A stretch of 38,198 bases of DNA from Tidjanibacter sp. Lineage in GTDB: Bacteria; Bacteroidota; Bacteroidia; Bacteroidales; Rikenellaceae. A model generated the notes under the pieces. The model was not told the origin of the DNA and ran no database searches. It saw nothing but the letters and a program-made list of their open reading frames with translations. This document shows positions 27,157 to 38,198 of this stretch, in pieces (the first letter of the stretch is position 1; each line of letters opens with the position of its first letter). The stretch covers positions 1 to 38,198 of the forward strand of contig JAFXAY010000042.1 of the NCBI GenBank assembly GCA_017521965.1, in the 5' to 3' direction. Made by a program: the position numbers and the translations under genes.

Positions 27157-27384
27157 ACACTTCAAAGACAGAATTACTCTCTATTTTGTAGAATTGGAGT
27201 TTCAATAAAGAGTTGCTTATCTTTGTTATGCTTATGCTTTTTCATTGCTTGTTTGAACGACACTATTTAGGAATATTTGAAGGAATATAGTCTCGTTTTC
27301 CGCGATAATTTCCTACACCCCCTAACCCCCTGGAAGGGGGCAGAGAGGGTCGCGGGCAGCGAGCGCCCTTCTTCATACAGAAAA
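27157..27384. other. Intergenic region with a G/C-tract hairpin
   Basis: No gene seen. At 27326-27340 a CCCCCT / AGGGGG hairpin with a three-base loop stands inside a C-rich/G-rich stretch that differs from its surroundings. It looks like the sort of short element that recurs between genes in a genome, but only this copy is in the window. No clear terminator for the upstream MBL-fold gene. Confidence 0.4.
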
Positions 27385-37827: not shown

Positions 37828-37858
37828 TTTGCCACAAACAAAAAAGAGGCTATATTTG
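37828..37858 (+). promoter_or_regulatory. Promoter of the tRNA-Gly(GCC) cluster
   Basis: TTTG (37828-37831), 19 bases, then TATATTTG (37851-37858): a perfect match to the Bacteroidota housekeeping consensus. The first mature tRNA starts 45 bases later. Confidence 0.85.
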
Positions 37859-37902: not shown

Positions 37903-37975
37903 GCGGAAATAGCTCAGTTGGTAGAGCACAACCTTGCCAAGGTTGGGGTCGCGAGTTCGAGTCTCGTTTTCCGCT
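37903..37975 (+). tRNA. tRNA-Gly (anticodon GCC), copy 1
   Basis: 73 bases. Acceptor GCGGAAA / TTTCCGC with discriminator T; anticodon arm CAACC-TTGCCAA-GGTTG with anticodon GCC; T-arm with GAGTTCGAGTC. CCA is not encoded (CAA follows). A short hairpin AAACGC / GCGTTT at 37978-37999 lies directly after it. Confidence 0.96.
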
Positions 37976-38019
37976 CAAAACGCTCAGAATAAGGCGTTTA
38001 ACAAGAATTATTCACCACT

Positions 38020-38122
38020 GCGGAAATAGCTCAGTTGGTAGAGCACAACCTTGCCCCAAGAGGAATCAAACTTCCCCAACCTTGGCAAGGAGAGCAAAGC
38101 CAAAGAGCAAAACCGCAAAACC
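38020..38122 (+). pseudogene. Broken, partly inverted tRNA-Gly(GCC)
   Basis: Bases 38020-38055 equal the first 36 bases of the intact Gly(GCC) genes, through the anticodon. The rest of the tRNA is missing: no T-arm and no acceptor 3' strand follow in this orientation. Instead, 38074-38090 (CCCCAACCTTGGCAAGG) is the exact reverse complement of 17 bases of the intact tRNA (anticodon loop, 3' stem strand and variable loop). On the minus strand, the continuation through 38056 has a T-arm-like GGAAG-TTTGATT-CC stretch. A 7-base stem CCTTGCC (38049-38055) / GGCAAGG (38084-38090) joins the two parts. The final 32 bases are an A-rich spacer. It cannot fold as a tRNA. Assembly error at a repeat cannot be excluded. 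Confidence 0.8.
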
Positions 38123-38195
38123 GCGGAAATAGCTCAGTTGGTAGAGCACAACCTTGCCAAGGTTGGGGTCGCGAGTTCGAGTCTCGTTTTCCGCT
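38123..38195 (+). tRNA. tRNA-Gly (anticodon GCC), copy 2
   Basis: 73 bases, identical to copy 1 throughout. The three bases after the discriminator, at the end of the window, are CCA; this may be an encoded CCA end or chance. It presumably shares the promoter upstream of copy 1. Confidence 0.95.
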
Positions 38196-38198
38196 CCA

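Follow-up and report, generated by a model that had tools for sequence, protein, structure and literature searches.

The stretch analysed here (the window) is the 38,198-nucleotide contig JAFXAY010000042.1 of the Tidjanibacter sp. (Rikenellaceae) assembly GCA_017521965.1. It is an entire contig of a 98-contig, 1.77 Mb draft and terminates at the last gene of a tRNA-Gly cluster. Between two intact tRNA-Gly(GCC) genes of this cluster lies a unit (38020-38122) that looks like an undescribed conserved RNA element, composed of the 5' half of tRNA-Gly(GCC) and an antisense copy of the anticodon arm of the same tRNA. We regard it as very probable that the unit belongs to a conserved Bacteroidales RNA element that is functional. 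Our tentative preference, held at somewhat less than even confidence, is that the element acts in cis as an antisense leader tuning the maturation of tRNA-Gly.

A unit built from tRNA-Gly(GCC) between two intact genes

The features of the locus, all on the plus strand, are as follows.

37828-37858, plus: Bacteroidetes-type promoter of the tRNA-Gly cluster, read from the sequence as TTTG (37828-37831), 19 nucleotides and TATATTTG (37851-37858)
37903-37976, plus: tRNA-Gly(GCC) copy 1, intact (ARAGORN; Rfam RF00005, 70.5 bits)
38020-38055, plus: 5' half of the unit, tRNA-Gly nucleotides 1-36 by identity and kept in relatives; acceptor 5' strand, D-arm (stem GCTC 38029-38032 with GAGC 38041-38044) and anticodon arm up to GCC
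38056-38073, plus: variable loop CCAAGAGGAATCAAACTT with mini-stem GGAA/TTCC
38074-38090, plus: antisense piece CCCCAACCTTGGCAAGG, the reverse complement of tRNA-Gly nucleotides 30-46, with conserved core 38077-38090
38084-38090 with 38049-38055, plus: stem P1, GGCAAGG paired with CCTTGCC
38091-38116, plus: D-arm and 5' acceptor strand of tRNA-Gly, inverted and degenerate (from duplex energy, z = -4.1)
38123-38198, plus: tRNA-Gly(GCC) copy 2, intact, the gene preceded by the unit, at the contig end (ARAGORN, Rfam)

The original prediction had described a chimeric tRNA-Gly between two intact copies, and its sequence comparisons were confirmed: 38020-38055 is identical to nucleotides 1-36 of tRNA-Gly(GCC), the 17 bases at 38074-38090 are the exact reverse complement of nucleotides 30-46 and form the longest inverted match, and both flanking copies are intact. 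Together with the downstream gene the order is thus tRNA(1-36), a loop of 18 nt, an inverted tRNA running from 46 to 1, and a full tRNA. The last part of the inverted copy (38091-38116) reads AGAGC-AAA-GCCAA-A-GAGC-AAAA-CCGC, an interrupted complement of the D-arm and 5' acceptor strand. Its duplex with the 5' half has an energy of -19.6 kcal/mol, against a mean of -8.4 in shuffled sequences, and none of 2000 shuffles equalled it. A decayed T-arm, which had also been suggested for the unit, found no support, as the inverted copy runs instead into the D-arm and 5' acceptor strand. The proposed T-arm falls in 38056-38073, the position of a loop that differs between species, and no consistent T-arm was seen among 144 distinct loops. 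At no more than one mismatch, AACCTTGGCAAGG has 5 matches in the window where 0.03 would be expected, and all of them lie in the unit or in the anticodon arms of the two tRNA genes. No intrinsic terminator was found on the plus strand of the window behind the hairpin.

Distribution in Bacteroidales

The comparison with relatives that had been proposed with the original prediction recovered the same unit in related genomes. The genus was represented by 23 genomes in a DNA search that also took in 100 relatives; the unit was present, each time with a different loop, in three genomes of the same genus (G004, G010, and G016) and in two from other genera of the family (G025 and G028). A scan of the genome collection with the pattern GAGCNYNACCTTGCCN{6,36}ACCTTGGCAAGG gave matches in at least 119 stretches, two of them apparently by chance (L053 and L105). 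The remaining matches, where titles were listed, came from Bacteroidales or unclassified Bacteroidetes, and more than 115 Bacteroidales stretches carried the unit. Carriers among the matches listed included Tannerella forsythia, Odoribacter laneus, Petrimonas, Proteiniphilum, Alistipes, Paludibacteraceae, and Prevotella. The groups with the unit were Rikenellaceae, Dysgonomonadaceae, Tannerella, Odoribacter, Paludibacteraceae, and Bacteroidaceae, in arrays of 1-8. Unit counts are not counts of independent events, as some units are tandem copies and some come from related species. The unit is present in the Petrimonas record AP018040.2, titled complete genome, and a single 3.9 Mb contig of genome G544 holds eight units of 118 bp in tandem. 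No other units have an antisense piece as divergent as that of these eight (L203/L224), GGGCTTGGCAAGG, and their D-loop is altered as well (GGATCGGT).

A pattern that required only the 5' half matched 17 of 200 genomes of the unit's own family (2 of the 22 matches were coding sequence hit by chance) and 32 of 81 genomes of a Dysgonomonadaceae-like family, a few chance coding matches included. Even draws across the order gave 3/295 and 2/295 genomes, one of the three being a terminator-like palindrome. Outside Bacteroidales, no true unit turned up when 247 genomes were drawn evenly from the phylum; matches in three other genomes were coding-like or terminator-like and were rejected as units.

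Conservation of the antisense piece

When the antisense piece was left out of the search criterion, every tRNA-type half retrieved proved to have it. Over all loci, 167 halves that were not part of an intact tRNA were compared: the antisense piece was exact in 148, had one mismatch in 15 and two mismatches in 4, and was absent in none. Many of the loci behind these 167 halves had been selected by the exact antisense piece, and the unbiased evidence is that from the searches not requiring it. The piece also tracks its host tRNA. Its two variable bases agree with the unit's own tRNA half in 149/156 and 142/156 cases, against shuffled means of 84 and 103, and they match the actual downstream tRNA in 119 of 129. 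Complementarity spans tRNA nucleotides 30-44 with ends fixed at nucleotide 30 and at nucleotide 43/44. Beyond both ends it is at background, with C at the position following nucleotide 44 in 26/156 and T after GGCAAGG in 52/168. Copying by template switch should give ragged ends, and the fixed ends therefore point to selection. The hairpin needs GGCAAGG alone, and a plausible role for the additional CNACCUU is that of a toehold for the 3' anticodon strand of the tRNA. Selection is argued for by the conservation of this putative toehold and by the linkage in cis described below.

Other parts of the unit were conserved to different degrees. The acceptor strand was that of the unit's own tRNA in 117/128 cases; the D-loop differed from it in 24/128, and the D-stem was usually retained. 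Loops were 17-25 nt long in nearly all relatives, purine-rich and otherwise variable. AAGG occurred in 91 of 144 loops (18 expected); it is complementary to both CCUU segments and can pair with either. Among unique spacers, 31% paired with the 5' half (z < -2), and in some Alistipes-type units the loop paired with the spacer through compensating changes (CACATCC, CACACCC, and GCACGTCC, each with matching partners). The pairing partner of the spacer thus differs by lineage, being the 5' half in some and the loop in others. Alignment folding did not yield a single global secondary structure and recovered only part of P1, because P1 sits in tRNA-identical sequence, which cannot covary, and because loop length varies. 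A leader peptide was considered as well, since some Dysgonomonadaceae loops read ATG-AAA-ACG-ACC-TTG-GCA-AGG-TAA; judged by eye, start and frame were lost in other lineages, and this candidate was rejected.

Linkage to tRNA-Gly and its promoter

In all 154 testable cases the next feature on the same strand, 12-121 nt on, was either another unit (45) or an intact tRNA-Gly(GCC) (109), and in none of these cases was a unit found apart from a tRNA-Gly. The promoter motif TAnnTTTG was present within 160 nt upstream of 111 of 124 first units, compared to 9 of 124 with shuffled flanks. From this promoter position we infer that tRNA-Gly transcripts begin with the unit; in the window the unit would instead be an internal leader.

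Predicted folds and a candidate mechanism

We folded unit and tRNA of the window separately and jointly. Separately, the unit is predicted to fold with P1 (CCUUGCC/GGCAAGG) at -32.1 kcal/mol and the tRNA as a cloverleaf at -26.8 kcal/mol (fold I). Jointly, the predicted minimum is -76.4 kcal/mol, with the antisense piece on the anticodon arm of the tRNA and unit nucleotides 1-7 paired with tRNA nucleotides 66-72 (fold II). Fold II was the predicted minimum in 100 of 101 loci, a median of 11.5 kcal/mol better than the separate folds. The acceptor strand was exchanged in the predictions for 86 of 91 loci, and the switch of partners was predicted at tRNA nucleotides 37-41 in 44 of 45 traced loci.

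These predictions suggest how an antisense leader might work, provided that unit and tRNA-Gly are transcribed as a single precursor. The nascent unit would fold on itself first, through P1 and spacer pairing, leaving CNACCUU single-stranded as the toehold. Once tRNA nucleotides 37-41 have been transcribed, a more stable alternative would become available, in which the antisense piece takes nucleotides 30-44 of the downstream tRNA and the 5' half of the unit captures the tRNA 3' half. The precursor would then be bistable: fold I, possible first during transcription, would give normal tRNA-Gly, and fold II, the predicted equilibrium state, would give a trapped tRNA-like hairpin that is degraded or processed differently. 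The balance between the two folds would set, or feedback-control, the output of tRNA-Gly(GCC). A bolder version, which we think unlikely, is that one tRNA-Gly transcript gives two tRNA-like products, normal tRNA-Gly from fold I and, from fold II, a longer tRNA-like RNA made of the unit 5' half and the tRNA 3' half with a long hairpin replacing the anticodon region. Toehold strand exchange during transcription would make the choice, and tRNA-Gly itself may sense it; if true, this would place a tRNA gene under the control of its own mirror image.

Several points weigh against the antisense leader. The prevalence of fold II is partly a product of sequence identity and is by itself no proof of selection. 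Equilibrium folding ignores tRNA modification, tertiary contacts, kinetics, and proteins, and in the proposed order of events P1 forms first and could block fold II from ever occurring. In the array of genome G544, which may have been relaxed or re-specialised, the antisense piece carries two mismatches. The unit of the window comes after a tRNA-Gly rather than first in the cluster. Finally, the distribution is patchy, and the unit is therefore dispensable.

Structured regulatory leaders are not generally known for bacterial tRNA genes. If true, a widespread leader in which the 5' half of a tRNA is joined to an antisense version of the anticodon arm of the same tRNA would represent a novel class of RNA-based control. 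How gut and oral Bacteroidales set the level of each tRNA would then become a question to ask. The partner sequences are defined base by base, so that the antisense leader can be tested directly in carriers that grow in culture, for example Tannerella forsythia, Odoribacter laneus, and Petrimonas.

Alternative explanations

One competing explanation, in our judgement a rather improbable one, is that the unit is a non-functional relic of an ancient template switch, its likeness to tRNA-Gly being kept by recombination with the adjacent genes and its copies amplified by unequal crossing over between direct repeats. The direct-inverted-direct layout is what such an event would leave. Template switching at the near-palindromic anticodon arm was also the origin given in the original prediction; the layout fits a double switch, which may explain the remote origin of the unit and leaves unexplained its sharing across genera, its tandem amplification, its place behind the promoter and ahead of tRNA-Gly, and the conservation of the antisense piece. 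The 36-nt direct repeats allow easy expansion and clean loss, which may explain the patchy distribution, and spacers within arrays are nearly identical. A relic accounts poorly for the antisense piece, however, a sequence absent in that orientation from the tRNA, yet far better conserved than loop and spacer and bounded by the same borders everywhere. Nor does it account for D-loops that drift while the D-stem is usually retained, for the enrichment of AAGG, or for the covariation of loop and spacer.

Alternatively, the leader might be cleaved off and act in trans as a stable small RNA, a 5' tRNA half with a 3' hairpin, on mature tRNA-Gly, on its cleaved 3' half or on another target. The original prediction had likewise envisaged a small RNA made of a 5' half joined to a hairpin, and the anatomy is compatible with this. 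There is perfect complementarity of 14-17 nt to the anticodon arm with an exposed toehold, and element and tRNA are predicted to cofold at -64.9 kcal/mol, compared to -45.9 apart. Tandem arrays of up to 8 suggest a dosage effect. However, a gene acting in trans need not lie within 121 nt upstream of tRNA-Gly, yet all 154 testable units were so linked and no unit stood away from a tRNA-Gly. Such strict linkage in cis speaks more for a tRNA leader than for a free small RNA, and we consider action in trans unlikely.

A far less probable explanation is a relic of a mobile element that integrated at the anticodon arm of tRNA-Gly, with the inverted core as a reversed attachment site. The tRNA anticodon arm is a classical core site of tyrosine integrases, and in the same genus a different tRNA-derived element with inverted repeats lies downstream of tRNA-Gly. 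Against this stand the lack of any match to the unit among 2.9 million viral contigs (no search for integrases around the loci was made), the small size of the units (about 100 bp), the similarity of the loop across families, and the retention of the 5' half alone, whereas integration usually duplicates the 3' end. An assembly artefact, the outcome named in the original prediction as refuting it, had to be considered because the contig ends in a repeat, and some assemblies, the present draft included, break at the unit; the same structure with different loops is found in many independent assemblies, among them AP018040.2 and that with the 8-unit array on a 3.9 Mb contig, so that an artefact is ruled out, the chance of a one-off rearrangement of this strain is negligible, and the unit is neither an artefact nor a recent accident.

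Relation to known RNAs

The unit escapes both ARAGORN and Rfam: neither gave a tRNA match (RF00005) at 38020-38122 or at the units of seven other loci, and no matching Rfam family was found for the element in the window or at these seven loci. Its first 36 nt are those of tRNA-Gly(GCC), but it lacks the 3' half, the T-arm, and the 3' acceptor strand of a tRNA. A YrlA Y RNA-like match (RF02553) was spurious, at 29.3 bits against a gathering cut-off of 69, and ran from the T-arm of copy 1 into the unit's D-arm. No T-box riboswitch (RF00230) was matched at E <= 1 in the window or at E <= 0.05 in the seven loci. As in a T-box, a leader RNA would be able to pair with the anticodon of a specific tRNA, the antisense piece containing GGC, the complement of GCC. 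Unlike a T-box, the unit precedes a tRNA gene and not a gene for an aminoacyl-tRNA synthetase or amino-acid metabolism (a unit or tRNA-Gly(GCC) was next in 154/154), would pair over 14-17 nt instead of 3, and itself includes the 5' half of the tRNA that it would pair with.

Three further systems bear comparison. In split, trans-spliced tRNA half genes of the Nanoarchaeum type, the 5' half ends in the anticodon loop and is followed by duplex-forming sequence. The unit likewise has a 5' half ending in the anticodon loop and sequence capable of forming a duplex, but it has no matching 3'-half gene, being followed by another unit or a complete tRNA-Gly, and its duplex partner is the tRNA itself. 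Sponges in external transcribed spacers of tRNAs, such as 3'ETS-leuZ, are regulatory RNA segments within a tRNA precursor transcript, as is proposed here for the unit; the unit differs in lying 5' of the tRNA, in being derived from it, and in being antisense to the tRNA rather than to small RNAs. tmRNA has a tRNA-like domain with a long insert, and in the predicted fold II, similarly, the D-arm and 5' acceptor strand would be joined to a T-arm and 3' acceptor end that lie at a distance. The sequence of the unit is different, it has no tag reading frame, and fold II is known from prediction only. A limited search of the literature on structured RNAs and on the B. thetaiotaomicron transcriptome, with subscription journals and supplementary tables outside its scope, found no such element.

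Other tRNA-derived sequences

The second tRNA-derived element of the same genus lies behind tRNA-Gly at five loci (L013, L016, L018, L011, and L034). It is about 120-150 bp long and sometimes in tandem. Its parts are a reverse-complemented 3' half of tRNA-Gly, a C/G-rich core that contains AGGGGGTTAGGGGGTGTA, and the 3' half in direct orientation. In the window only the core and a partial flank are present (27315-27332, minus strand), behind tRNA-Gly(CCC). Two further loci, L165 (G281:C1:1974413) and L234 (G573:C28:41409), contained hairpins whose arms are ACCTTGCCAAGG and its inverted copy; that of L165 lies outside any tRNA gene and has a terminator-like appearance. At locus L042 (G025:C18), a decayed tRNA-like sequence lies behind tRNA-Gly; it contains AACCTTGCC-CCGATGAAAAAGAAATTC followed by CATACCGTCAGGTATG and a T-arm-like 3' half, an arrangement that resembles a unit fused to a tRNA 3' half.
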